Below are positions 4,643 through 21,146 of a stretch of 64,000 nucleotides of DNA, in pieces. Each line of letters starts with the position of its first letter. Position 1 is the stretch's first letter. A model generated the notes under the pieces. That model was not told where the DNA came from. It was given only the letters and a program-made list of their open reading frames with translations, and searched no databases. This stretch comes from an uncultured Bacteroidota bacterium (GTDB taxonomy: Bacteria > Bacteroidota > Bacteroidia > Flavobacteriales_F > PHOS-HE28): contig CADEDY010000002.1 in assembly GCA_902826215.1 (NCBI GenBank), positions 62,001 through 126,000 of the forward strand, given 5' to 3'. The translations under genes and the position numbers were made by a program.

Positions 4643-4917
4643 GGGGAGCGGTGCCAAGCGGGATGGTCGGCACCCGATCGGGATCAGCTCTTGGGGTGCG
4701 CGCTGTAAGGCGTGGAGGGCATTGAGGAAAGCAATTGCAGATGGTGGGTGCTTTTCGGATCGGTGTGGTTTTGTAGATGATCCATTACACAGCAGGAGAA
4801 CTCACACCCACACGTTCAAATCTCTTATGGACCGCAGGTTCCAACGGTCCTGGCCGGAGATAGGTTTGCCGCCTCTCCCCTATGACTTCGCGGTGATCCC
4901 ATCGAATCCTTGAGCCC
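4643..4917. other. Divergent intergenic region between pgk and the giant adhesin
   Basis: About 275 bp with no credible gene. I find no exact TAnnTTYG box for the plus-strand giant gene. The nearest similar string is a TATGACTTCG at about 4879-4890, whose spacing is two bases too long. The adhesin operon may use another promoter type. Confidence 0.5.
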
Positions 4918-7900
4918 ATGCGCGCACTTCTTTCCGGACTTTTCCTCGTGATCCTCGCCATCCGCACCACCGCACAGGTGGCTGTTTGTGGCACCCCCGG
5001 CATCGATGGTCCTGCGAACGCAGCGGCGGTGATCAACTCGTATTTCGCCATCAACGGTAACCAGTCGGTCCCTGCTGGATCGACATCGTTGGTATTGGGG
5101 GCGGTACCGGCCACGGATGCATCTGGCAATACCTACGGAAGTATCGCCATCGCGCCGGGTGACCTGGTCCTCATCATCCAGATGCAGGATGCGGACATCA
5201 CTACCGCGAACAGCGACCTCTATGGTGGGAATAGCGCAACGGGTGGCCCGGATGGACTTGGGGGTACGGGATACACCGCGCTGAACAGTACCGGTCGTTA
5301 TGAATACCTGGTCGCCACCAACAGTGTGGCGCTCACCGGTGGCACCCTCACCTTCAGGGCTGGAGGAACTGGCGGTGGTACCGTATTCGGCTATGTCAAT
5401 CAGGATGGTACAGCAACGGTATCGCAGAAGCGCTTCCAAGTGGTGCGTGTGCCTCAGTATTCCAATCTGACCTTGACCTCCGACCTGATCTGCCCTCCTT
5501 GGAATGGAAGTGCGGGCGGCGTGCTGGCCTTCGATGTGGCAGGCTCATTCAATTTCGGGGGATTCACGGTGAACGCCAATGCACGCGGTTTCCGGGGCGG
5601 GTACCAGGACCAAGCGGCCTCGGGCGCCAATGTGAGCACCACCTACGTGACCACCTCCCTGACCGAATCCTCCGGAAAAGGGGAGAACATCGCCGGCACA
5701 CCGCGCTACATGTGGAACGGCTTCAATCCGGTGGACCTTGGTGCTACGTGGAACGGCTTTCCTGGGGGCGACTTCGGGCGCGGAGCACCGGGTAACGGAG
5801 GTGGTGGTGGTAACGACCACAATGCGGGTGGCGGTGGCGGTGGTAATGGTGGTGCGGGCGGTGTGGGTGGTTTGGGTTGGCAGGGTGCTGGTGGTACCAA
5901 TCCCAGCGGCGGACGTCCCGGAGTGGGCATTCCCCAAGCCTTGGGTCGACTCTACCTGGGCGGCGGCGGCGGCGGTGGCGATGCGAACAACGCCACCACC
6001 GGTGTAAGAGGCGGTGTAGGCGGTGGTCTGGTCATCATGAACGTGGGCAACATCGTAGGAGCGGGCACCATTACAGCCAATGGCTCCGATGGCGAGCCCG
6101 GCGTGTTCGGAACTGCCCCGGACGGCGCAGGTGGTGGTGGCGGTGCCGGCACCATTTTCGTCAATGCTTCGCAGCCCAGTCCGACCGCCAACCTGACCCT
6201 TCAGGCCAATGGTGGCCGCGGCGGGAATACCCTCAATGATAACGGGTTCGAGCATGGACCCGGCGGCGGCGGCGGTGGTGGTGTGATCTGGTACAACCTG
6301 CCGGGGGCCACGATCAGTGCCGTAGTGACCGGTGGCGCTTCTGGACGAGCGAACAACGGTGCAGGTATCGTACACGGATCAGCAGATGGTCAAGGCGGTA
6401 GTGCCAATGTGTTCGCGTCGGCTTCGCTGCCAACGTACCTGCAGGGTACCAGCGCCAGCTGCCTGCCTACGATGTCCGTCACCAAGACCTCGGCCAGCGC
6501 TACTTCCGGCCTGTCCGTGCCGCAGGGCGCCAACACCACCTATACGTTGGTGGCCTCCAACGCTACTTCGGGTGGCGGTGCAGCGGCCGTGCAGGTGCGT
6601 GACCTGCTTCCCTCTGGCTTCAGCTTCGTATCCGCCACGGCCACCTATGCCAATGGCGCTTCCGGACCGGCCACCCTCACCAATCAGGGTACTGCACAGG
6701 AGCCGGTGTTGGGCGACTTCGCACTTCCCGCTGGTGGGACGGTCACCATTGAGCTGACCGTATCGGTGAATGCCGCCCAGGCACCCGGTGTGTACCACAA
6801 TGGTGCGGAGATCAGTTACCCGGATCCCACACGCACAAGTGCTTCTCCCGATCGACGCATCTCGCCCGCCACCAACGCCTATGCGGGCAGCAACACCACC
6901 TATCAGACCGGTGGGTCCGTTCCTGGAAGCAATTACAGCAATGCCGTCGGCGGCCCTGCTGGTGAGAACGTCTTTGTGCTGGCCATTCCCCGGCCCGGCA
7001 ACGATGCCTTCACCATGAACGAGGATGCCGTGCTGAGCGATGTGCTTAGCACCAACGACAGCGATGCCGATGATCCACTGTCCTCGCTCATCTGGTCCTT
7101 GTTGGACGGAGGTACCGCGGCGGCCAATGGCACCGTGGTGGTGAACGCGAACGGCACCTTCACCTACACGCCGAACCCCAACGTGAACGGCACGTTCGTC
7201 TTCGAGTACAACCTCTGTGACGATGACGGCCTGTGCGGTGTGGGAACGGTGTCGATCACTGTGAACGCCTTGCCTGATGCCCCTGTGGCCAATGACGACA
7301 ACGGTGGCACCCTTACGGAGGACGGCCCCAACGGCTTCGTGAACATCCTGACCAACGACACCGATGCCGATGGTAACCCCAGCGGTCCTACCAATGGTGT
7401 GGGTCAATTCACTGTGGACTTGGACCTGACCACTGCCGGGTTGCAGACCACCATCACCACCGCGCAAGGCACCTGGATCTACAACCCCGCGAACGGAGCC
7501 ATCGACCTGGCATTGGCCGCCAACGTGAACGGCCCGGTCACATTGCCATACCGCCTCTGCGACCCCACGGGACTCTGCGACGATGCCACGATCACCTTCA
7601 CGGTAACCGCCGTGAACGATGTGCCGATCGCCAACAACGATAACGGCGGCACGCTGCAGGAGGATGGACCCAATGGCACCATCAACGTGCTGCTGAACGA
7701 CACCGATGCCGATGGCAACCCCACGGCACCCACCAACAACTTCGGGCAATTCTCGGTGGACCTCGATCCCGACGCGGTAGGGCTGCAGATCATCTTCACC
7801 ACCACCCAGGGCGTATGGACCTACAGCGGCGCCACGGGCGTGGTCACCTTTGATCCGGCGACCGACTTCAATGGCACCGCCACACTCACCTATGTGCTGT

Positions 7901-10900
7901 GCGATCCGGCCTTCGGTTGCGATGATGCGGTGATCACCTTCACGGTGGACCCGGTGAACGACCCGCCGGTGGCGAACAACGATGCGGTGACCATCGCCGA
8001 GGATGGACAGGCCACGTTGAGCGTGGTGACCAATGACAACGACATTGCTGACGGCGGTGCGCTTGACCTCACCTCGCTCACCGTGATCGATGGGCCGAAC
8101 AGCGGTACGGCCGTGGCCAACACCGATGGTACCATCACCTACACGCCGGGGCTCAACTTCACCGGCAACGATACGGTGACCTACCGCATCTGCGACCTGG
8201 GAACGCCGCTGCCCGCCCTCTGCAGCACGGCCATCCTGGTGATCACCGTAACGCCGGTGAACGACGGACCTGTGGCCAACGATGACACCGGTGCATCCTT
8301 GACGGAGGACGGCCCCAACGGTACGGTGAGCATCCTGACGAACGACACCGATGTGGACGGCAACCCTGCCGCACCCACCAATGGACCCGGCCAGTTCACG
8401 GTGGATCTGAACGCAGGCACCGCGGGCATCCAGACCACGGTGACCAATGCACAAGGCGTGTGGACCTACAACGCCACGACCGGTGTGGTCACCTTCGACC
8501 CGGCCGATAATTTCAACGGCACCGCTACGCTCACCTATGTGCTCTGTGATGCTGCGGGCCTCTGCGACAATGCCGTGATCACCTTCGGGGTGACGGCGGT
8601 GAACGATGCGCCAGTGGCCAACGACGATAACGGTGGCTCCATCATCGAGGATGGTGCCAACGGCATCGTGGACATCCTCACCAACGACACCGATGTGGAG
8701 GGCAACCCCACCGCACCCACCAACGGTCCGGGGCAGTTCACCGTGGATATGGACCTCGCCACAGCAGGGGTGCAGGCCACCATCACCACCGCGCAAGGCG
8801 TATGGACCTACAACCCGGCTATCGGCCTGGTGGTCTTCGATCCCGCCAACAACTTCACCGGATCGGCAACCACCTCCTATCGACTCTGCGATGCCGCCGG
8901 ACTCTGCGACGATGCGCTCATCACGTTCACGGTGACCGCGGTGAACGATGCGCCCGTGGCCAACGATGACAACGGTGGCAACCTTGTGGAGGATGGCGCC
9001 AATGGTACGGTGAGCGTGCTGCTCAATGACACCGATGCCGAAGGCAACCCAAGTGCACCCACCAACAACGCAGGACAGTTCTCCGTGGATCTTGATCCCG
9101 CCACGGTAGGCCTGCAGACCAGCTTCACCAATGCACAAGGAGTTTGGACCTACAGCGGCGTGACCGGCGTGGTCACCTTCGATCCCGCCACGCACTTCAC
9201 CGGAACGGCCACGCTCACTTACCAGCTCTGCGATCCAGGTCCGCTCTGCGACAACGCCGTGATCACCTTCGTGGTGGGACCGGTGAACGACCCGCCGGTG
9301 GCCAACGACGATGCGGTGACCATTGCGGAAGGCGCCGTGGCCACCCTCAACGTGCTCACCAACGACAATGACCTGATCGATGGCGGCGGACTGGACCTGT
9401 CCTCGCTCACCGTGATCGATGGGCCGAACAGCGGCACGGCCGTGGCCAATACGGATGGCACCATCACCTACACACCGGGCCCCGACTTCAACGGCAACGA
9501 CACCGTGACCTATCGCATCTGCGACCTGGGAACACCGCTGCCCGCCCTGTGCAGCACGGCCCTCTTCGTGATCACCGTGACACCGGTGAACGATCCGCCG
9601 GTGGCCACCGATGACAACGGCGGCACCCTCACCGAGGATGGCCCCAACGGTACCGTGAGCATCCTGCCCAATGACACCGATGCGGAAGGCAACCCCACCG
9701 CACCCACCAACGGCGTCGGTCAATTCACTGTGGATCTTGCGCCTGGTGCTCCCGGCGTGCAGACCAGCTTCACCAGCCCACAAGGTGTGTGGACCTATGA
9801 TGCCGCCACCGGCGTGGTCACCTTCGACCCAGCCACCAACTTCACCGGCACCGCCACCACCACCTACACCCTCTGCGATCCGCAAGGCCTGTGCGACAAC
9901 GCCGTGATCACCTTCGTGGTGAACCCGGTGAACGATGCGCCCGTGGCCACCGATGACAACGGCGGCAGCATCCTGGAGGACGGCCCCAACGGCACGATCA
10001 ACGTGCTATTGAACGATACCGATCCCGACGGCAATCCCACCGCACCCACCAACGGCGCTGGCCAGTTCACCGTGGACCTGGACGTGAACACCCCGGGCCT
10101 GCAGACCACGGTGACCACCGCACAAGGCGTATGGAGCTACGATGCTGCGACCGGCTTTGTGTCCTTCGATGGCGCTGAACACTTCAACGGCACGGTGAAC
10201 CTCACCTATCAGTTGTGCGATCCGGACGGCCTCTGCGATCCGGCCACCATCACCTTCATTGTGGCGCCCGTGAACGATCCGCCCGTGGCCAACGACGATG
10301 TGGACAACATGCTGCCCAACACCACGCTGATCACCAACGTGTGGGCCAACGACAATGACCTGCTCGATCAGTCGCCGGTGGATGCAGCGAGCATCACCAT
10401 CATCGGCGGACCGGACAACGGTACGGCCGTGGCCAACCCCGATGGCACCATCTCCTACACGCCTACTGCGAACTACGTGGGTAATGACACGATCACCTAC
10501 CGTATCTGCGACCTCGGTGTGCCCGCGCCTGCCCTGTGCGATACGGCCATCCTGGTGATCACAGTTACCAATGCATTCCCCCTCGCGGTGGATGACAACG
10601 TGCTCCTGAACGAGGACGCCTTCGTGGTGATCACCGTGCTGCAGAACGATGACGCCGTGAGCGGGGTGCTCGTGCCCAGCTCGGTGCAGGTGACCGTGGC
10701 GCCGGTGAACGGCACCGCCGTGGCCAACGCCGATGGCACCGTCACCTACACCCCGGGCCCGAACTTCAACGGCACCGATGTCTTCAATTACACCGTGTGC
10801 AACGACCAGGGCTTCTGCTCCATCGCTACGGTACTGATCGCGGTGAACGCCGTGAACGATGTACCGGTGGTCAATGACGACGCAGCCACCACCGACGAGG

Positions 10901-13900
10901 ATACGCCGGTGACCATCGCCGTGCTGGCCAACGACAACGATGCCATTGACAACAGTGGCATGGACCCCGCCTCGGTGATCGTGATCGATGGACCCGCCAA
11001 CGGCACCACCAGCGTGAACCCCGATGGTACCGTGAACTACACGCCAGCGACCGACTTCACCGGAACGGACACCTTCACTTATGTGGCCTGCGACCTGGGC
11101 GTGCCGCTGCCGGCCCTGTGTGACACCGCCGTGGTGGTGATCAATGTGCAATCCCTGGTGGATGCGCCCGTGGCCGTGAACGATGACGGTGGCGAACTCA
11201 TTGAAGATGGAGCCGATGGAACGGTGAACATCCTCACCAACGACACCGATGTGGATGGCAACCCAAGCGCACCCACCAACGGCGCTGGGCAGTTCACCGT
11301 GGACCTGGACCTGGGTACCACCGGCCTGCAGACCTCCTTCACCAATGCACAGGGTGAATGGACCTACGATACCGCCACAGGTGTGGTCACCTTCAACCCG
11401 GCCGACAACGTCAACGGGGTGATCTCCATCTCCTACCAACTCTGCGATCCCACTGCGCTCTGCGACAACGCCACCATCAGCTTCAACGTGCTGCCGGTGA
11501 ACGATGTGCCCCTGGCCAACGATGATGCGGCAAGCACCGAGGAGGACACTGACGTGACCATCGATGTGCTGGGCAACGACAACGATGACACCGACAACAG
11601 TGGACTGGATGTGGGCTCGGTGAACGTGATCGATGGTCCGAACAACGGTACGGCCACGGTGAACGGCGATGGCAGCATCACCTACACCCCGGCTGCGAAC
11701 TATGCCGGCACTGACACGCTGACCTATGTGGTGTGCGACCTCGGTGTGCCGCTGCCTGCGCTCTGCGACACCGCCATCGTGGTCATCACTGTGGATCCGC
11801 TGAACGATGCGCCCATCATCACCGATGGAAATGGCATCCCGGTGGATAGCGCCACGGCCGCTACGCCCGAAGACCAAGCCATCATCCTCTGCCTGAGCGT
11901 GACCGATGCGGATGGTGACGTGGTGGATGTGACCGGCGTCCTGAATGGTCCGGCCTTCGGTACCATCAGCGGACTGAACGACAACGACACCTGCTTCACC
12001 TATACACCGGACGTCAACTTCTTCGGCACGGACAGCTTGCTCGTGGTGGTGTGCGATGTGAACGGCGCTTGCGACACGGTCTATGTGGGCATCACGGTGA
12101 CCCCGGTGAATGACGCCCCGCTTGCGGTGGATGATGCGGCGAGCACCGATGAGGACACTGATGTGACCGTCGATGTGCTGGGCAACGACAACGACGATGC
12201 GGACAACAGCGGGCTGGATGTTGGCTCGGTGAGTGTGATCGACGGACCGAACAACGGCAACGCTACGGTGAATGGCGACGGCAGCATCACCTACACACCC
12301 GATCAGAACTTCAACGGTGCTGATACGCTGACCTACGTGGTTTGTGACCTCGGCGTGCCGCTGCCTGCATTGTGCGACACGGCGATCGTGGTGATCACGG
12401 TGATCCCGGTGAACGATGCGCCCTTCATCACGCCTACGGATACCATCTTCACCAGCACCGGTGTGGATACGCCGCTGACCCTGTGCGTGAACGTTACTGA
12501 TGCCGATGGCGACGACCTGGACATCACGAGTGTGTTGCTGGACCCGCTGAACGGTACGCTGAGCGGCCTGGCCGATGGCGACACCTGCTTCACCTACACA
12601 CCGGATCCCGGCTACACCGGTGGTGACACGCTCACGATCAGCATCTGCGACCCCTTCGGTCTGTGCGATACGGTGGTGGTGGTGATCGACGTGATCCCCA
12701 ACCTGCCGCCGGTGATCGTGGATGAGGGTGGCACGCCCATCGACAGCATCGCGATAACAACGCCGGAGGAGGAGGCCATCACCGTGTGCTTGAACGCGAT
12801 CGATCCCGATGGTGACGCGGTGGATGTGACCGGCTTCTTGGACGGCCCGGCCTTCGGAACCATAACGGGGCTGAACGACAATGACACCTGCTTCACCTAC
12901 ACACCGGACGTCAACTTCTTCGGCACGGATAGCGTGCTGGTGGTGGTGTGCGATGTGAACGGCGGCTGCGACACGCTCTACGTGGGTATCACCGTGACGC
13001 CGCTGAACGATGCTCCGCTGGCCGTGGATGATGCAGCAAGCACGGATGAGGATACCGCCATCACCATCGATGTGCTGGGCAACGATAACGATGACGCGGA
13101 TAACAGCGGTCTGGATGTCGGCTCGGTGAGCGTGATCGATGGACCGAGCAACGGCACGGCCACAGTGAACGGCGACGGCAGCATCACCTACACGCCCGAT
13201 CCGAACTTCAGCGGCACCGATACACTGACCTATGTGGTGTGCGACCTCGGTGTGCCGCTGCCAGCGCTGTGCGACACGGCGATCGTGGTGATCACGGTGG
13301 ACCCGGTGAACGATGCGCCGATCATCACCGATGGCAACACCAACCCCACCGACACGCTCTTCACCAGCACGGATGTGAACGTCCCCCTGCTGGTGTGCGT
13401 GAACGTGAGCGATGCGGATGGCGACGACCTGGACATCACCAGTGTGCTGCTGGCCCCACTGAACGGCACGCTGAGCGGCCTGGCCGATGGCGATACCTGC
13501 TTCACCTACACACCGGACCCCGGATATACCGGTGGCGATACGCTCACGATCAGCATCTGCGACCCCTTCGGTCTGTGTGACACGGTGGTGGTGGTGATCA
13601 ACGTGATCCCCAACCTGCCGCCCATCGCGGTGGATGATACAGCGAGTGTGGTCACCGGCAACACGGTCGATATCGATGTGCAGGGCAATGACAGCGATCC
13701 CGAGGGTGGACCACTCACCACCACCAGCGCCACGGCCGACAATGGTACCGTGGTGATCAACGGCAACGGCACCATCACCTACACACCCAACCAAGGCTTC
13801 TGCGGCACGGACACCATCACCTACACCGTATGCGACGATGCGGGCTTCTGCGACAGCGCCATCGTGCTCGTGCAGGTGCTCTGTCCGCCGGTGGCTGTTG

Positions 13901-14715
13901 ATGATGCGGTATCCACCAACGAGGACACCTCCGTGGTGATCGATCCGCTGGATAACGATACCGATGGCAACGGCGATGTGCTCGACATCACCTCCGCCAC
14001 TGCGGGTAACGGTACGGTCACCATCAACGACGATGGCACCATCACCTACGTCCCCAACCCCAACTACTGCGGTACGGACACCATCACCTACACCGTGTGC
14101 GACGGATCCGGCTTGTGCGACACAGGCATCATCTTGGTGACGGTGGTGTGCGTGAACGACCCGCCCATTGCGGTGGATGATGTGGCCAACACCGGCGAAG
14201 GCGATCCGGTGACCGTGGACGTGACGGACAACGATAGCGATGTGGACGGTGACATCCTCACGGTGACCAACGCCTCGGCCGGCAATGGGACGGTGGTGAT
14301 CAACGGCAACGGTACTATCACCTACACACCGAACGAAGGCTTCTGCGGCACGGACACCATCACCTACACCGTGTGCGATCCAGGCCCGCTGTGCGACCAG
14401 GCCATCGTGGTGGTCACTGTGGCCTGCGATCCGGACGAGGTGTTGATCCCGCAGGGCTTCTCGCCCAACGGCGACGGCATCGGTGACACCTGGGTGATCA
14501 CCGGACTGGAACTGTATCCGCAGGCCAGCGTGCAGATCTTCAACCGCTACGGCAACGTGGTCTACGAGGCCACACCCTACGCCAACGACTGGGATGGCAC
14601 CAACACCAACGGCCTCTCCGTGGGTGACCAGCTGCCCATCGGCACCTACTGGTACATCCTCGATCCCGGCAACGGTGAAGAACCGTGGTCCGGCTATGTC
14701 TACCTGAACCGCTGA
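4918..14715 (+). CDS. Giant tandem-module surface protein with type B T9SS (CHU_C) sorting domain
   Basis: A 3265-residue secreted protein. A signal peptide (MRALLSGLFLVILAIRTTAQ) is followed by a cysteine-poor N-terminal region with a very Gly-rich stretch (about 290-490, runs such as GGGGGN). A DUF11-like domain follows at about 519-680 (MSVTKTSASAT..., VRDLLPSGFSF). Then come 24 tandem Ig/cadherin-like 'tandem-95' modules at about 691-3174, most opening VNDxPxAxDD and containing a GTDTxTYxxCDxxGxCD strand pair. The last ~90 residues (VLIPQGFSPNGDG..., QIFNRYGNVVYE, PIGTYWYILD) are a CHU_C/gliding-type sorting domain. It is probably exported by T9SS and held on the surface by the PorP/SprF protein encoded 23 bp downstream. 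The fold and export are well supported; the ligand is unknown. Confidence 0.93.
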   Translation: MRALLSGLFLVILAIRTTAQVAVCGTPGIDGPANAAAVINSYFAINGNQSVPAGSTSLVLGAVPATDASGNTYGSIAIAPGDLVLIIQMQDADITTANSDLYGGNSATGGPDGLGGTGYTALNSTGRYEYLVATNSVALTGGTLTFRAGGTGGGTVFGYVNQDGTATVSQKRFQVVRVPQYSNLTLTSDLICPPWNGSAGGVLAFDVAGSFNFGGFTVNANARGFRGGYQDQAASGANVSTTYVTTSLTESSGKGENIAGTPRYMWNGFNPVDLGATWNGFPGGDFGRGAPGNGGGGGNDHNAGGGGGGNGGAGGVGGLGWQGAGGTNPSGGRPGVGIPQALGRLYLGGGGGGGDANNATTGVRGGVGGGLVIMNVGNIVGAGTITANGSDGEPGVFGTAPDGAGGGGGAGTIFVNASQPSPTANLTLQANGGRGGNTLNDNGFEHGPGGGGGGGVIWYNLPGATISAVVTGGASGRANNGAGIVHGSADGQGGSANVFASASLPTYLQGTSASCLPTMSVTKTSASATSGLSVPQGANTTYTLVASNATSGGGAAAVQVRDLLPSGFSFVSATATYANGASGPATLTNQGTAQEPVLGDFALPAGGTVTIELTVSVNAAQAPGVYHNGAEISYPDPTRTSASPDRRISPATNAYAGSNTTYQTGGSVPGSNYSNAVGGPAGENVFVLAIPRPGNDAFTMNEDAVLSDVLSTNDSDADDPLSSLIWSLLDGGTAAANGTVVVNANGTFTYTPNPNVNGTFVFEYNLCDDDGLCGVGTVSITVNALPDAPVANDDNGGTLTEDGPNGFVNILTNDTDADGNPSGPTNGVGQFTVDLDLTTAGLQTTITTAQGTWIYNPANGAIDLALAANVNGPVTLPYRLCDPTGLCDDATITFTVTAVNDVPIANNDNGGTLQEDGPNGTINVLLNDTDADGNPTAPTNNFGQFSVDLDPDAVGLQIIFTTTQGVWTYSGATGVVTFDPATDFNGTATLTYVLCDPAFGCDDAVITFTVDPVNDPPVANNDAVTIAEDGQATLSVVTNDNDIADGGALDLTSLTVIDGPNSGTAVANTDGTITYTPGLNFTGNDTVTYRICDLGTPLPALCSTAILVITVTPVNDGPVANDDTGASLTEDGPNGTVSILTNDTDVDGNPAAPTNGPGQFTVDLNAGTAGIQTTVTNAQGVWTYNATTGVVTFDPADNFNGTATLTYVLCDAAGLCDNAVITFGVTAVNDAPVANDDNGGSIIEDGANGIVDILTNDTDVEGNPTAPTNGPGQFTVDMDLATAGVQATITTAQGVWTYNPAIGLVVFDPANNFTGSATTSYRLCDAAGLCDDALITFTVTAVNDAPVANDDNGGNLVEDGANGTVSVLLNDTDAEGNPSAPTNNAGQFSVDLDPATVGLQTSFTNAQGVWTYSGVTGVVTFDPATHFTGTATLTYQLCDPGPLCDNAVITFVVGPVNDPPVANDDAVTIAEGAVATLNVLTNDNDLIDGGGLDLSSLTVIDGPNSGTAVANTDGTITYTPGPDFNGNDTVTYRICDLGTPLPALCSTALFVITVTPVNDPPVATDDNGGTLTEDGPNGTVSILPNDTDAEGNPTAPTNGVGQFTVDLAPGAPGVQTSFTSPQGVWTYDAATGVVTFDPATNFTGTATTTYTLCDPQGLCDNAVITFVVNPVNDAPVATDDNGGSILEDGPNGTINVLLNDTDPDGNPTAPTNGAGQFTVDLDVNTPGLQTTVTTAQGVWSYDAATGFVSFDGAEHFNGTVNLTYQLCDPDGLCDPATITFIVAPVNDPPVANDDVDNMLPNTTLITNVWANDNDLLDQSPVDAASITIIGGPDNGTAVANPDGTISYTPTANYVGNDTITYRICDLGVPAPALCDTAILVITVTNAFPLAVDDNVLLNEDAFVVITVLQNDDAVSGVLVPSSVQVTVAPVNGTAVANADGTVTYTPGPNFNGTDVFNYTVCNDQGFCSIATVLIAVNAVNDVPVVNDDAATTDEDTPVTIAVLANDNDAIDNSGMDPASVIVIDGPANGTTSVNPDGTVNYTPATDFTGTDTFTYVACDLGVPLPALCDTAVVVINVQSLVDAPVAVNDDGGELIEDGADGTVNILTNDTDVDGNPSAPTNGAGQFTVDLDLGTTGLQTSFTNAQGEWTYDTATGVVTFNPADNVNGVISISYQLCDPTALCDNATISFNVLPVNDVPLANDDAASTEEDTDVTIDVLGNDNDDTDNSGLDVGSVNVIDGPNNGTATVNGDGSITYTPAANYAGTDTLTYVVCDLGVPLPALCDTAIVVITVDPLNDAPIITDGNGIPVDSATAATPEDQAIILCLSVTDADGDVVDVTGVLNGPAFGTISGLNDNDTCFTYTPDVNFFGTDSLLVVVCDVNGACDTVYVGITVTPVNDAPLAVDDAASTDEDTDVTVDVLGNDNDDADNSGLDVGSVSVIDGPNNGNATVNGDGSITYTPDQNFNGADTLTYVVCDLGVPLPALCDTAIVVITVIPVNDAPFITPTDTIFTSTGVDTPLTLCVNVTDADGDDLDITSVLLDPLNGTLSGLADGDTCFTYTPDPGYTGGDTLTISICDPFGLCDTVVVVIDVIPNLPPVIVDEGGTPIDSIAITTPEEEAITVCLNAIDPDGDAVDVTGFLDGPAFGTITGLNDNDTCFTYTPDVNFFGTDSVLVVVCDVNGGCDTLYVGITVTPLNDAPLAVDDAASTDEDTAITIDVLGNDNDDADNSGLDVGSVSVIDGPSNGTATVNGDGSITYTPDPNFSGTDTLTYVVCDLGVPLPALCDTAIVVITVDPVNDAPIITDGNTNPTDTLFTSTDVNVPLLVCVNVSDADGDDLDITSVLLAPLNGTLSGLADGDTCFTYTPDPGYTGGDTLTISICDPFGLCDTVVVVINVIPNLPPIAVDDTASVVTGNTVDIDVQGNDSDPEGGPLTTTSATADNGTVVINGNGTITYTPNQGFCGTDTITYTVCDDAGFCDSAIVLVQVLCPPVAVDDAVSTNEDTSVVIDPLDNDTDGNGDVLDITSATAGNGTVTINDDGTITYVPNPNYCGTDTITYTVCDGSGLCDTGIILVTVVCVNDPPIAVDDVANTGEGDPVTVDVTDNDSDVDGDILTVTNASAGNGTVVINGNGTITYTPNEGFCGTDTITYTVCDPGPLCDQAIVVVTVACDPDEVLIPQGFSPNGDGIGDTWVITGLELYPQASVQIFNRYGNVVYEATPYANDWDGTNTNGLSVGDQLPIGTYWYILDPGNGEEPWSGYVYLNR
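6991..14439 (+). repeat. 24 tandem ~95-110-residue beta-sandwich modules
   Basis: By hand I count 24 modules of four main types. Eight are type A (DDNGG...EDGPNGT...NDTDADGNP...TNGxGQFTVDLD), seven type B (NDNDxxDxSGLD...VIDGPNNGTA...DLGVPLPALCDTA), four type C (TDADGDxxD...NDTCFTYTPD) and three type D (DNGTVVINGNGTITYTP...GFCGTDTITY), plus two singletons. Types are interleaved rather than blocked, apart from the three D modules at the end. The DNA is repetitive enough to create very long spurious antisense ORFs. Confidence 0.9.
11800..13611 (+). repeat. ~900-bp segmental duplication of a C-B-C module triplet
   Basis: Residues about 2295-2594 (modules 16-18) and 2595-2898 (modules 19-21) are nearly the same three-module block. 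At the DNA level the copies are offset by 897 bp in the first module and 912 bp in the last; long stretches are identical, for example around DVNFFGTDS and LSGLADGDTCFTYTPD. This is the youngest-looking duplication in the protein. Confidence 0.85.
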
Positions 14716-14738
14716 TCGGCCACGAACAACGCAGAACC

Positions 14739-15674
14739 ATGAGCAGCTTCCGCAACCTCTGCACGGCACTGGCCCTCCTTGGCGGCGCCACCGTGACCTT
14801 CGCCCAGCAGGATCCGCAGTACACCATGTACATGTGGAACATGATGGCCATCAACCCCGGCTACACCGGCAGCGCCGACGTGCTGAACATCACCGCCCTC
14901 GCCCGCCAGCAATGGACCGGCCTGGACGGTGCACCCAGCACGCAGTCCATCGCCCTGCACTCGCCCCTGCGCAACGAGAACATCGCTCTGGGCTTCTCCC
15001 TGGTGAACGACCGCATCGGCCCCGTACACACCACCCTGTTCAACGGCAACTTCGCCTACCGCATCCGCACCGGCGAGAACACCCGCCTTTCCTTCGGGCT
15101 GCAGGCCGGGGTGAACATGCTGCAAGCCAAGCTGGGCGAACTCGCCAACGTATCGGCGAACGACCCCGTCTTCGCGCAGAACGTGGCCAATGAGCTGGCG
15201 CCCAACTTCGGCTTCGGGGTGTACTACTGGGGACGCAAGGGCTTCCTCGGCCTCAGCGCACCCAAGCTGCTGGAGAACGACTACGGTACGGTCGTCACCG
15301 CCACCGGCGATGCTTCCACGCTCACCGAACGCCGCCACTACTTCCTCTCCGGCGGCTACCTCTTCCGCCTCTCCGATGCGCTCCACCTCAGGCCCATGTT
15401 CATGACCAAGGTGGTGGAAGGAGCCCCGTTGAGTGTGGACCTCAACGCCATGTTCATCCTGCGCGAGAAGCTCTGGCTCGGTGCCGCCTACCGCAACCAG
15501 GACAGCTTCGCGGCCATCGCCGCCTTCCAGATCACCGACCAGCTGCGCGCCGGCTATTCCTACGACATGACCACGAGCAACCTGCGCCGCTACAACAACG
15601 GCTCGCACGAGCTCATGCTCAGCTACGACCTGCGCTCCAACAAGGACCGCATCCTCACCCCCCGATTCTTCTGA
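14739..15674 (+). CDS. PorP/SprF family T9SS outer-membrane protein
   Basis: A 311-residue outer-membrane beta-barrel protein of the PorP/SprF family. The N-terminus is a signal peptide ending VTFAQQDPQYTMYMWN; the motif QYTMYMWNMMAINPGYTGS is the family signature, followed by ARQQWTGLDGAPSTQ. Alternating aromatic strands run to the C-terminal DRILTPRFF. In Flavobacterium, SprF is needed for surface display of the giant adhesin SprB. Here the gene sits 23 bp after a CHU_C-tagged giant protein and 5 bp before a PorE-like gene, so the same role is likely for its upstream neighbour. The ATG at 14739 is chosen because it begins the signal peptide. Confidence 0.93.
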   Translation: MSSFRNLCTALALLGGATVTFAQQDPQYTMYMWNMMAINPGYTGSADVLNITALARQQWTGLDGAPSTQSIALHSPLRNENIALGFSLVNDRIGPVHTTLFNGNFAYRIRTGENTRLSFGLQAGVNMLQAKLGELANVSANDPVFAQNVANELAPNFGFGVYYWGRKGFLGLSAPKLLENDYGTVVTATGDASTLTERRHYFLSGGYLFRLSDALHLRPMFMTKVVEGAPLSVDLNAMFILREKLWLGAAYRNQDSFAAIAAFQITDQLRAGYSYDMTTSNLRRYNNGSHELMLSYDLRSNKDRILTPRFF

Positions 15675-15679
15675 CCGCG

Positions 15680-17932
15680 ATGCGCCCACTGCACACCTTC
15701 CCGGCCAACGCCACCCTCACCCTGGGTGCCTTCCTGTCGCTGTCCATCGCCGCGGTGGCCCAGAACGGAGCCCTGCGCCGTGCCGATGCCCGCTACGAGG
15801 CCCTCGCCTTTGCTCAAGCCGCACCGCTCTACGAGGAGGCCGCGCTCAAAGGAGCACCGCTCGATCGTGTGGCCCCCAAGCTCGCGGACAGCTACTGGCG
15901 CATGCGCGACCTGTCCCGCGCCAACACCTGGTACGCCCGCCTGGCCACCCGTCCCAACCCCGAACCACTGCACCTGTACCGCTACAGCGAGACCCTCCGC
16001 AGCCTGGGCCGCTTCAGCGCCGCCGACTCGGTGATCCAGCGCTACGAAGCCATCGCCGCCACGGACTCGCGCGCTGAACGCCAGCGCAACGCACAGGCCT
16101 ACGCGGCCCGACTCGAACAGGCCAACGCCTTCGGGGCACGTCTGCTGAACCTCAACATCAACACCGCGCGCTGCGACATGGGCGCCGCCTACCTCGGCGA
16201 CCGCGTCACCTTCGCCTCCGCGCACCGCCAGGCCGCCGCCGACCGCCAGCACACCTGGAACGGCGAGCCCTTCCTGGACCTATACAGCGGCAAGCCCTCC
16301 AGCAGCGGGGCACTGGCCGATGTCAGCTCCCTCGGTGCACCCTTCAACACCCGCTACCACGACAGCAACACCAGCGCCACCACCGACGCGCGCGAAGTGT
16401 GGTTCACCCGCAACAACTACGAAGGCAGCAAGCGCCGCACCGACGACAAGGGAGTGACCCGCTTGAAGATCTTCAGCAGCACCCGCGATGCCCAGGGTGC
16501 CTGGGCCGATGCCAAACCCTTCCCCTACAACAGCGACAGTTACTCCGTGGGCCACCCTGCCCTCAGCGCCGATGGCAAGCGCCTCTACTTCGCCAGCGAC
16601 CGTCCGGGTGGTGTGGGCGGCACCGACATCTGGTATTGCGAGCGCACGGCCACAGGTGGCTGGGCCGAACCGATCAACGCCGGTCGTGCCGTGAACACCG
16701 AAGGCAACGAGCTCTTCCCCTTCGCCGCGCAGGAAGGACTGCTCTTCTTCGCCAGCGATGGACATCAGGGCCTGGGCGGGCTGGATGTGCTGATGACCAC
16801 CGTGAAGGGCTCCTCCTTCGGTGCAGCGCGCAACCCCGGCGCACCCATCAACAGCCGCAGCGATGACTTCTCCTTCGTGCTGGCCGCCGACGGGCTCAAC
16901 GGCTACCTCACCAGCGATCGTCCCGGTGGCAAGGGCGATGACGACATCTATGCCTTCACACTCACGAAGAAGCCCGGCGTGCGCCAACGCATGGAGGGTG
17001 TGGCGCAGGACCCCGTGACCCGTGCGCCGCTGGCCGGTGTGCGCGTGCTGCTCACCAATGCCCAAGGCACACCTGTTGATTCGGTCGTCACCGCTGCTGA
17101 CGGACGCTACAGCTTCGACGTGGAGCACAGCACCACCTACCGCATCAACGGCACCCTCGCCGACCGCCGTCCCGGTAACGCCGAGCTGCCTGCACTGCCC
17201 GAGGCTGACACCCTGGTGGTGCGCGACCTGGAACTGCTGGAGGCCCGCATGTACACCCTGCTCCTGCGCGTGACCGATGCGGCCACCGGCAAGCCCCTCG
17301 AAGGGGTGCACACCATCCTTTCCAAGAAGCCGGTGGGCACGGTACTGGTGGATGCCAACACGAGCGCCACCGGTGAGCTGCGCACCACCCTGGACAATGC
17401 CGCCAAGGGCGATGCGCTGAACATGACCGTGCGCCTGGAGCGGGAAGGCTACGTGAGCAAGAACCTCACCTACAGCGAGTACATCGGCGCCGATCCGGAG
17501 ATCAAGGTACACGGCGCGCTGGACCTCTCCATGCAACCGCTGGAAGTGGGTGCCGACCTGGGCAAGCTCATCGACATCAAGCCCATCTACTTCGACCTCG
17601 GCAAGCACGCCATCCGCAAGGATGCTGCGGCCGAGCTGGACAAGATCGTCGCGGCCATGAAGGAGTATCCCACCATGATCATTGAACTGGGCAGCCACAC
17701 CGACTGCCGCTCCTCCATCGCCTCCAATGCCGCCCTCAGCGACCGTCGTGCCAAGAGCAGCGCCGCCTACATCGTCAGTAAGGGCATCGTCGCTGATCGC
17801 ATCTCCGGCAAAGGCTATGGCGAAAGCAAGCTGATCAACGGCTGTGCCTGCGAAGGCGCCGTGAAGAGCACCTGCTCCGAGGCCGAACACCAGCTGAACC
17901 GGCGTACGGAGTTCATCATTGTGAAGATGTGA
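15680..17932 (+). CDS. PorE-like TPR / PD40 propeller / CRD / OmpA protein
   Basis: A 750-residue periplasmic protein. After a signal peptide (residues 1-29, ...AAVAQ) come TPR-like helices (about 30-150). A PD40 beta-propeller follows (about 180-430), with HPALSADGKRLYFASDRPGG and repeated FASDG / LTSDRPGGKGDDDIY blades. Two carboxypeptidase-regulatory-like beta domains lie at about 438-520 and 535-630, and an OmpA C-terminal domain at about 640-750 (IYFDLGKHAIRKDA, ELGSHTDCRSS, NRRTEFIIVKM). This is the domain order described for PorE of the T9SS, which binds peptidoglycan and tethers outer-membrane components. It follows the PorP/SprF gene by 5 bp. It could serve this adhesin specifically rather than the core secretion machine. 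Confidence 0.9.
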   Translation: MRPLHTFPANATLTLGAFLSLSIAAVAQNGALRRADARYEALAFAQAAPLYEEAALKGAPLDRVAPKLADSYWRMRDLSRANTWYARLATRPNPEPLHLYRYSETLRSLGRFSAADSVIQRYEAIAATDSRAERQRNAQAYAARLEQANAFGARLLNLNINTARCDMGAAYLGDRVTFASAHRQAAADRQHTWNGEPFLDLYSGKPSSSGALADVSSLGAPFNTRYHDSNTSATTDAREVWFTRNNYEGSKRRTDDKGVTRLKIFSSTRDAQGAWADAKPFPYNSDSYSVGHPALSADGKRLYFASDRPGGVGGTDIWYCERTATGGWAEPINAGRAVNTEGNELFPFAAQEGLLFFASDGHQGLGGLDVLMTTVKGSSFGAARNPGAPINSRSDDFSFVLAADGLNGYLTSDRPGGKGDDDIYAFTLTKKPGVRQRMEGVAQDPVTRAPLAGVRVLLTNAQGTPVDSVVTAADGRYSFDVEHSTTYRINGTLADRRPGNAELPALPEADTLVVRDLELLEARMYTLLLRVTDAATGKPLEGVHTILSKKPVGTVLVDANTSATGELRTTLDNAAKGDALNMTVRLEREGYVSKNLTYSEYIGADPEIKVHGALDLSMQPLEVGADLGKLIDIKPIYFDLGKHAIRKDAAAELDKIVAAMKEYPTMIIELGSHTDCRSSIASNAALSDRRAKSSAAYIVSKGIVADRISGKGYGESKLINGCACEGAVKSTCSEAEHQLNRRTEFIIVKM

Positions 17933-18024
17933 TCGCTGCGTGAGTCCGGTAGCCGAATGCCACTGCTTGCTGCATCCGGTAGGTATGGCGATGCGGACAA
18001 GCGCTTAGCTCGTTCCTTTGTGCC

Positions 18025-19212: not shown

Positions 19213-20661
19213 ATGAGAGATATGTCGTGTACAGGATGCAGCAGTGGAGCCGACGGTAAACCGTCCGGGTGCAAGAGCAACGGCTATTGCAGCACTAGTG
19301 GGTGCAACAAGTTGGGCGTTTTCGATTGGCTCACTGGAGTTCCGATCCCGGGCGGGCAACAGCCCTTCGACGGCGTGGAGGTGCGTTTCAAGAATACCCG
19401 CAAAGCGTATTACCGCAACGCCGGTGGCCTTCAGTTGATGCCCGGTGACCTCGTAACCGTGGATGCCGCCCCGGGGCACGACATCGGTATGGTGAGCCTG
19501 ACCGGCGAGCTGGTGCGAGCGCAGATGGAGCGCAAGAAGATGACCGCTGAGACCTATGATCTGCGCAAGGTGCTGCGCGTATCCACCCAAGAGGATATCG
19601 ATCGCTGGCACGAGGCACGCAAGAAGGAGGACGAGACGATGTTCGCCAGCCGCCAAATGGTGCGTGATGCCCGCTTGGACATGAAGGTGACCGATGTGGA
19701 GTATCAGGGCGACGGCACCAAGGCCATTCTCTACTACACTGCCGAGGAACGCATCGATTTCCGTGGGATCGTGCGCACCATGAGCGACCGGTTCCAAGTG
19801 CGCGTGGAGATGAAACAGATCGGCTCCCGCCAGGAGGCCGGCCGCATCGGTGGCATCGGCAGTTGCGGGCGTGAGTTGTGCTGCAGCACGTGGCTTACTG
19901 ACTTCCGCAGTGTGACCACGAGTGCCGCGCGTTACCAGCAACTCGCACTGAATCCGCAGAAGCTCGCGGGGCAATGCGGCAAGTTGAAGTGCTGCCTCAA
20001 CTACGAGCTCGATATGTACATCGAGGCGATCAAGAGCTACCCCTCGCAGAACGCCAAGCTGAAGACCCAACAGGGTGTCGGTGCCCACATGAAGACGGAC
20101 ATCTTCAGTGGCAAGATGTGGTATGGTTTCAAGCGCCCAGGCGAACCCTTCGTGATGGCTGGTTTCCCCATTGAGGTGGTGCGCGACATCCTCGCCCAGA
20201 ACAAGGAAGGCGTGGAACCGGAGGTGGACCTGAACATGGTGGACGAGCCGAAGGAGACCGTGAAGGCTCCGGATTATGAGAACGTGGTAGGCCAGGATGA
20301 TCTGACCCGCTTCGACAATAAGACGCGCTCCAAGAGCGGAAAGAAACGCAGTCGCGGTGCGCGCGATCGGGGTGATCGCCCACAAGGTGCCACACCTTCG
20401 GGAGGTGACCAACGCGGCCCAAGACCCGAAGGAGGTGCGACGCCCGCCGATCGCGGCCCACGGCCACCGCGCGGCCCACGGCCTGATCGCGGCCCAAGAC
20501 CAGAAGGACCGCGTACCGGTGATCAAGGACCACGGCCTGATCGCGGCCCACGTCCCGAAGGCCCAGGTGGTGATCGTGGTCGTCGGAACCGGGGACGTGG
20601 TCGTCGTAGCGGAGATCGACCGGCAGGCGGAGAAGGCCCACCCAAACCACCAGCTGCGTGA
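19213..20661 (+). CDS. ricT: PSP1-domain protein, RicT/YaaT family
   Basis: RicT family protein of about 482 residues. The N-terminus is Cys-rich (CTGCSSGADG..., CKSNGYCSTSGC), as in Bacteroidota homologues. The PSP1 core follows, with GVEVRFKNTRKAYYRN, IGGIGSCGRELCC and AGQCGKLKCCLNYELDMY; the paired C-x4-CC and C-x5-CC motifs match cysteines that bind Fe-S clusters in Bacillus RicT, a factor in RNA maturation. The last ~90 residues are a disordered Arg/Gly/Pro tail with repeated RGPRP units. I chose the ATG at 19213, giving MRDMSCTGC. Its stop overlaps the gldH GTG start (GTGA), suggesting coupled translation. Confidence 0.9.
   Translation: MRDMSCTGCSSGADGKPSGCKSNGYCSTSGCNKLGVFDWLTGVPIPGGQQPFDGVEVRFKNTRKAYYRNAGGLQLMPGDLVTVDAAPGHDIGMVSLTGELVRAQMERKKMTAETYDLRKVLRVSTQEDIDRWHEARKKEDETMFASRQMVRDARLDMKVTDVEYQGDGTKAILYYTAEERIDFRGIVRTMSDRFQVRVEMKQIGSRQEAGRIGGIGSCGRELCCSTWLTDFRSVTTSAARYQQLALNPQKLAGQCGKLKCCLNYELDMYIEAIKSYPSQNAKLKTQQGVGAHMKTDIFSGKMWYGFKRPGEPFVMAGFPIEVVRDILAQNKEGVEPEVDLNMVDEPKETVKAPDYENVVGQDDLTRFDNKTRSKSGKKRSRGARDRGDRPQGATPSGGDQRGPRPEGGATPADRGPRPPRGPRPDRGPRPEGPRTGDQGPRPDRGPRPEGPGGDRGRRNRGRGRRSGDRPAGGEGPPKPPAA
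20350..20658 (+). repeat. Low-complexity RGPRP-type repeats in the RicT tail
   Basis: Imperfect direct repeats of a gatcgcggccca-like unit encode DRGPRP, RGPRPDRGPRPEGP and RRNRGRGRR. The composition resembles RGG-type RNA-binding tails. Confidence 0.75.
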
Positions 20662-21146
20662 ACCGCGCCTCTATCGCCTTTGCATTGATTCTGGCGAGCG
20701 CTCTCGTAGGGTGCTCCGAACCCCCTGTTTTCCAGGCCGATATGCCTGTCCCGGGTGAGGTGTGGGGTCGCACGTTCAAGCCCACCTTCGCTTTTGACAT
20801 TGCTGACACGGTCAGTCGACACGACCTGTACATCGACGTTCGCCATACCGGCGACTATGCCTACAGCGACCTATTCCTTTTCGTGGACTTGGAAGGCCCT
20901 GGGGGGCGATCCGTGCGCGATACGGTGGAATGCCTTTTGGCGGATCCGACGGGGAATTGGTACGGACGAGGAACAGGTTTCATTCTGGCACGCCGGACCT
21001 TGGATGCCAAGATCCTGTACAAGCTGGGCAATAGATTCCCTGCCTCGGGCCGTTATTCCATCACACTGGAGCAAGCCATGCGCACGGAAGATCTGGCGGG
21101 CGTGATCGATGTGGGCGTGAGCGTGGAGCGCTCGAAGAAGCAATGA
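20658..21146 (+). CDS. gldH: Gliding motility lipoprotein GldH
   Basis: A 162-residue lipoprotein of the GldH family. The signal sequence ends in a good lipobox, SALVGCSEPP. The mature part contains YSDLFLFVDLEGPGG, DPTGNWYGRGTGF and the C-terminal YSITLEQAMRTEDLAGVIDVGVSVE, typical for GldH. GldH is required for gliding in Flavobacterium but is also kept in non-gliding Bacteroidota; its exact mechanism is unsettled. The GTG start overlaps the ricT stop by 4 bases, and a penicillin-binding protein follows 77 bp later. The RicT-GldH-PBP order is one I recall from Flavobacteriales genomes. Confidence 0.9.
   Translation: MNRASIAFALILASALVGCSEPPVFQADMPVPGEVWGRTFKPTFAFDIADTVSRHDLYIDVRHTGDYAYSDLFLFVDLEGPGGRSVRDTVECLLADPTGNWYGRGTGFILARRTLDAKILYKLGNRFPASGRYSITLEQAMRTEDLAGVIDVGVSVERSKKQ

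Follow-up and report, generated by a model that had tools for sequence, protein, structure and literature searches.

In the genome of an uncultured Bacteroidota bacterium we found an accessory three-gene cassette of the type B type IX secretion system (T9SS), which most likely displays a single giant adhesin in a static manner, backed by peptidoglycan. It lies in a window of 64,000 nucleotides, by which we mean the whole stretch of DNA analyzed (contig CADEDY010000002.1, positions 62,001 to 126,000). This reading is built on the content, order and spacing of the genes, on the conservation of that order, on peptidoglycan-binding residues, on an empty site in congeners and on a barrel protein that has no Cys tail. 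The idea of such a cassette has already been published in essence (PMC9143113, PMC12618676); the insertion described here, which is absent from congeners, strengthens the cassette interpretation and adds to the published picture.

Table 1. Coordinates of the cassette, of the DNA that contains it and of related fusion genes (L numbers denote loci; all other positions are those of the window).
Feature	Position	Strand	Basis
Giant type B T9SS cargo, 3265 aa	4918..14715	+	ORF and family matches
PorP/SprF family outer-membrane barrel, predicted cargo carrier/anchor, ATG start, C-terminus LTPRFF	14739..15674	+	ORF, family matches
SprF C-terminal T-P-R-F-F codons (PRxF tail)	15657..15671	+	Tail conserved among PorE-linked SprFs
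PorE-like tether, 750 aa, TPR/PD40 propeller/CRD/OmpA, without lipobox	15680..17932	+	ORF, family matches
Extra DNA when compared with congeners at the pgk-holB junction, about 13.4 kb, three genes only	4643..18022	.	blastn breakpoints
SprF-OmpA fusion (TSP3 linker)	L125:3418-5094		
SprF-SPOR fusions	L144:2201-4375; L158:2608-4440; L186:3452-4855		

The first gene encodes a type B T9SS substrate, as judged by its C-terminal CHU_C sorting domain (aa 3177-3264), which in a profile search scored 88.9 bits with CHU_C (cut-off 27) and 62.2 bits with TIGR04131 (cut-off 35). The protein carries about 24 Big_9/tandem-95 stretches of Ig/cadherin-like type and a Gly-rich N-terminal region whose match to the AgmC type is weak, and its N-terminus (MRALLSGLFLVILAIRTTAQ) appeared signal-like by eye. 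The second gene starts 23 bp past the stop of the giant gene, and its product belongs to the PorP/SprF family, with matches to PF11751 (287 bits) and TIGR03519 (280 bits) that both exceed the cut-offs; no solved structure matching it by sequence was found. The third reading frame begins 5 bp after the end of the second gene. The first-pass annotation had described this arrangement correctly to the base.

The domains of the third protein follow the TPR-PD40-CRD-OmpA order of PorE (NF052230), and an AlphaFold2 model of a relative gave TPR helices, a beta-propeller, beta-sandwiches and an OmpA fold in the same order. The PorE model scored 291.6 bits, compared with a curated cut-off of 600 that no gene of the source genome reaches, and we therefore call the protein PorE-like and not PorE; the CHU_0125 OmpA model scored higher (383 bits), with both values below the curated cut-offs. 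The best PDB match of its OmpA domain was 6TOP, the C-terminal domain of PorE bound to peptidoglycan, and in the alignment D675, N683 and R690 fall, at equal spacing, on the three residues with which P. gingivalis PorE contacts peptidoglycan, Asp576, Asn584 and Arg591. There is no Cys in the N-terminus (MRPLHTFPANATLTLGAFLSLSIAAVAQNG) and hence no lipobox of the PorE kind, which by a simple pattern is missing from 91 of 105 PorE-like proteins encoded in such triplets.

Comparison with congeners showed that the cassette occupies a discrete insertion. On the left, blastn similarity ends at about 4642, and it returns at about 18023 on the right, so that the extra DNA amounts to 13.4 kb with exactly three genes. 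It lies between pgk on the left and holB on the right, and beyond holB come a PSP1 gene, gldH and the gene of a class A penicillin-binding protein; within this order to the right of the insertion, the gldH lipoprotein gene occupies 20658-21146. In 16 of the 20 congeners examined at holB, pgk lies within about 0.4 kb of holB, and no SprF, PorE or CHU_C match was found between the two genes in these 16; the gap is 0.7-1.6 kb in two others, and in the last two there is no pgk nearby. The insertion has a GC content of 62-66%, and its flanks 57-58%. No repeat of at least 8 bp common to both ends was found. In sister species whose HolB is 81% identical, the matches to the PorE-like protein reach only 34-37% identity, and the nearest full relatives come from genomes G011 (53%) and G021 (47%). 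Gain of the cassette in the source lineage is the simplest reading, and the clean empty site supports an accessory, movable unit, as the annotation had proposed when it called the genes transferable.

The view of the three genes as one unit also held up, since their order and co-occurrence were seen across many Bacteroidota families. The unit is mostly, but not always, complete: nine plasmids carry SprF, and the three that we inspected have a cargo-SprF pair without PorE, so that the full triplet was not seen moving on plasmids. One such pair, on a Spirosoma oryzicola plasmid (NZ_CP089545.1, 13238-47284), pairs an SdrD B-like gene of ~33 kb, or about 11,000 codons, with a downstream SprF that ends in LTPRYF and has no PorE adjoining. 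Co-divergence of the partners was moderate (Spearman 0.44 for SprF-PorE and 0.27 for SprF-CHU); the triplets within the source genome are too few for a mirror-tree.

Comparing SprF proteins, we observed that their C-terminal tails appear to track the neighbouring genes, a pattern that is new here. We sampled 151 SprFs whose flanks were usable, taken from the source genome and others of the same class, mostly with one genome per family. Tails of the form PR-x-[F/L], to which that of the window SprF belongs, were found in 37, with a PorE-like gene directly downstream in 36 of these and CHU_C directly upstream in 36. All 24 SprFs with NVRFL-type tails lie directly upstream of gldK. CPxF-type tails occur in 33: 19 of these SprFs sit directly before gldJ, seven after CHU_C and five after a PorE-like gene. 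Among the 57 with other tails, PorE is downstream in nine, several of which are near-variants (SPRL, HPRYYY). Overall, PorE is downstream of 36/37 PRxF SprFs and 10/114 of the rest (Fisher p about 2e-24, uncorrected for relatedness). A second, named set (Flavobacteriales, Marinilabiliaceae, Winogradskyella and others) gave PorE downstream in 64 of the 73 PRxF SprFs with room for it; the other nine retain the tail without an adjacent PorE and might be served by one encoded at another site of their genomes. The P, the R and the last F are invariant in 44 diverse PRxF sequences. In four SprFs the barrel is fused to a peptidoglycan-binding domain, OmpA in one and SPOR in three (Table 1).

Several loci show further arrangements. 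CPxF SprFs without a CHU_C neighbour stand directly upstream of gldJ, the gene of a gliding-track lipoprotein, at C10:5161-7926 of the source genome (L028) and at about 18 other loci. In five loci (L021, L152, L185, L187 and L198) a PorE-like gene precedes an SprF that ends in a Cys tail; PorE linkage and Cys tails are therefore not strictly exclusive. Three SprF modules, one with a Cys tail, one with a plain tail and one with a PRYF tail plus PorE, lie clustered side by side in two species of the genus (C2:290k-313k of the source genome and G039:C97:9.5k-30k). In an alignment of 29 GldK sequences (L027), one Cys besides that of the lipobox is kept in all 29 (own context NRQGCFLGNFKP), making it a candidate for bonding SprF.

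The short conserved tail of the window SprF may thus be a signal to anchor the cargo rather than to move it. Put more generally, and tentatively, the tail could act as an address label, with PRx[F/L]-COOH directing the barrel to a PorE-type tether (static), NVRFL marking the core PorP with GldK/PorK, CPxF directing it to the GldJ/GldK track (mobile), and a fused OmpA or SPOR domain replacing the label. We regard this as a lead and not a result, because most PRxF SprFs belong to a single clade, nine tails have no adjacent PorE and AlphaFold2 leaves the tail disordered. Such clustering in one clade means few independent origins of the tail-PorE association, and phylogenetically independent contrasts between tail and PorE were 3 to 0 at best, which is not significant. 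In the papers searched, we found neither PRYF together with type IX secretion nor the SPOR domain together with SprF.

A rather unlikely but serious alternative is that the PRxF terminus serves the barrel merely as a BAM folding signal and has nothing to do with PorE. Outer-membrane barrels typically end in an aromatic residue, the link to PorE may reflect shared ancestry within the clade, and the nine tails without an adjacent PorE fit this explanation. So does the AlphaFold2 model of an SprF-PorE fusion, in which no confident interface docked the tail (pTM 0.57, tail pLDDT 35-48, disordered); this model used a natural in-frame read-through (L037, 26 fused rows of 62) and is weak evidence on docking, as the free carboxylate is blocked and the signal peptide acts as a linker. 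Against a folding signal, the last predicted strand of the AlphaFold2 barrel model stops 13 residues short of the C-terminus and the tail beyond it is disordered, such an end is absent from many SprFs outside the clade, and in three lineages within it (L102; L111; L148/L164/L184) loss of the PorE neighbour goes along with a broken tail.

For the cassette as a whole, our preferred reading remains static display. The T9SS would export the giant repeat adhesin, and its own SprF barrel would take it over through the CHU_C domain, as binding of a cognate type B CTD is known for SprF-SprB and PorP-PG1035 (PMC9143113). SprF would, by homology, remain bound as the anchor. Its most likely holder on the inner side is the PorE-like protein, which may contact the PRxF tail and would grip peptidoglycan with its OmpA domain. 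The adhesin would thereby be fixed and load-bearing instead of riding the gliding track. Points that weigh against this reading are the score of the PorE-like protein below the PorE threshold, its missing lipid anchor, the merely moderate co-divergence of the genes and the undocked tail of the fusion model. We infer the bridging of adhesin and peptidoglycan from the PorE-PorP-PG1035 complex demonstrated in P. gingivalis (PMC9143113) and from the published structure of PorE with peptidoglycan (PMC7192894). In F. johnsoniae, five or six porP-like genes adjoin porE-like genes, and PorE-linked cargos have been proposed to be static (PMC9143113). Fjoh_3952, from a cargo-SprF-PorE operon, was reported in 2025 to form static foci, and SprB and Fjoh_4750, which have no PorE gene, are mobile (PMC12618676).

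It is improbable that the giant protein is instead an SprB-like mobile adhesin on the GldJ/GldK track, with the PorE-like protein in another role such as envelope integrity (the CHU_0125 family). The genome does encode GldK and GldJ, gldH lies 3 kb downstream, and the third protein matches CHU_0125 better than PorE. However, the Cys in the periplasmic C-tail of SprF that ties a mobile adhesin to GldK (PMC12635249) has no counterpart in the window, where the last 60 residues of SprF contain no Cys and thus lack the twin Cys of the SprB type, and the mobile cargos tested in F. johnsoniae have no PorE-like neighbour.

The source genome (4.16 Mb, 51 contigs) contains 15 SprF genes, 55 CHU_C matches and about a dozen PorE-like genes. 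The order CHU_C-SprF-PorE-like occurs at the window locus and at C2:310k, C24:33k, C3:131k, C13:2k, C13:9k and C5:163k, and at C3:347k a further set is arranged as cargo-PorE-SprF. The core PorP is another SprF copy (C5:93966), which ends in NVRFL and lies directly upstream of gldK (C5:95004), and the best PorE match of the genome (C4:153391, 473 bits) is away from any SprF. Judged by these positions the window triplet is not the core T9SS set, in keeping with the annotation, and we did not find what would have spoken against its proposal, a PorE-like gene that is the sole copy in the genome and conserved where the giant gene is lacking. That the window SprF and PorE-like genes are general core components standing beside the giant gene and serving all substrates, as the single PorP and PorE of P. 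gingivalis serve its whole T9SS (PMC9143113), is very improbable in view of these additional copies, of the congeners without a triplet at the locus and of the low identity of the PorE-like matches in the closest sisters.

These results suggest that a display set for a giant adhesin, complete with its own wall tether, moves as one block. With the tail pattern, the question of why some T9SS surface proteins are static and others ride the gliding track can be tested on five residues. If the address-tail reading is true, display cassettes would switch between static and mobile by tail swapping, and the fate of many uncharacterized Bacteroidota surface proteins could be read from sequence.

The closest known counterpart is Fjoh_3952-3951-3950 of F. 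johnsoniae (type B cargo, SprF-like shuttle and PorE homolog), which has the same families in the same order and whose cargo is static (PMC12618676); the window differs from it in that its cargo is a 3265-aa tandem-95 repeat protein and its cassette an insertion absent from congeners. PG1035-PorP-PorE of P. gingivalis forms a similar chain of cargo, barrel and peptidoglycan tether, which has been shown biochemically there (PMC9143113). In P. gingivalis, PorP and the type B cargo each occur once and PorE is a lipoprotein; in the window the genes are linked, form one of several sets and encode a tether without a lipobox. SprB-SprF of F. johnsoniae likewise pairs a giant CHU_C adhesin with a dedicated SprF, but there is no PorE neighbour, the twin-Cys C-tail of SprF joins GldK, and the cargo is mobile (PMC12635249).
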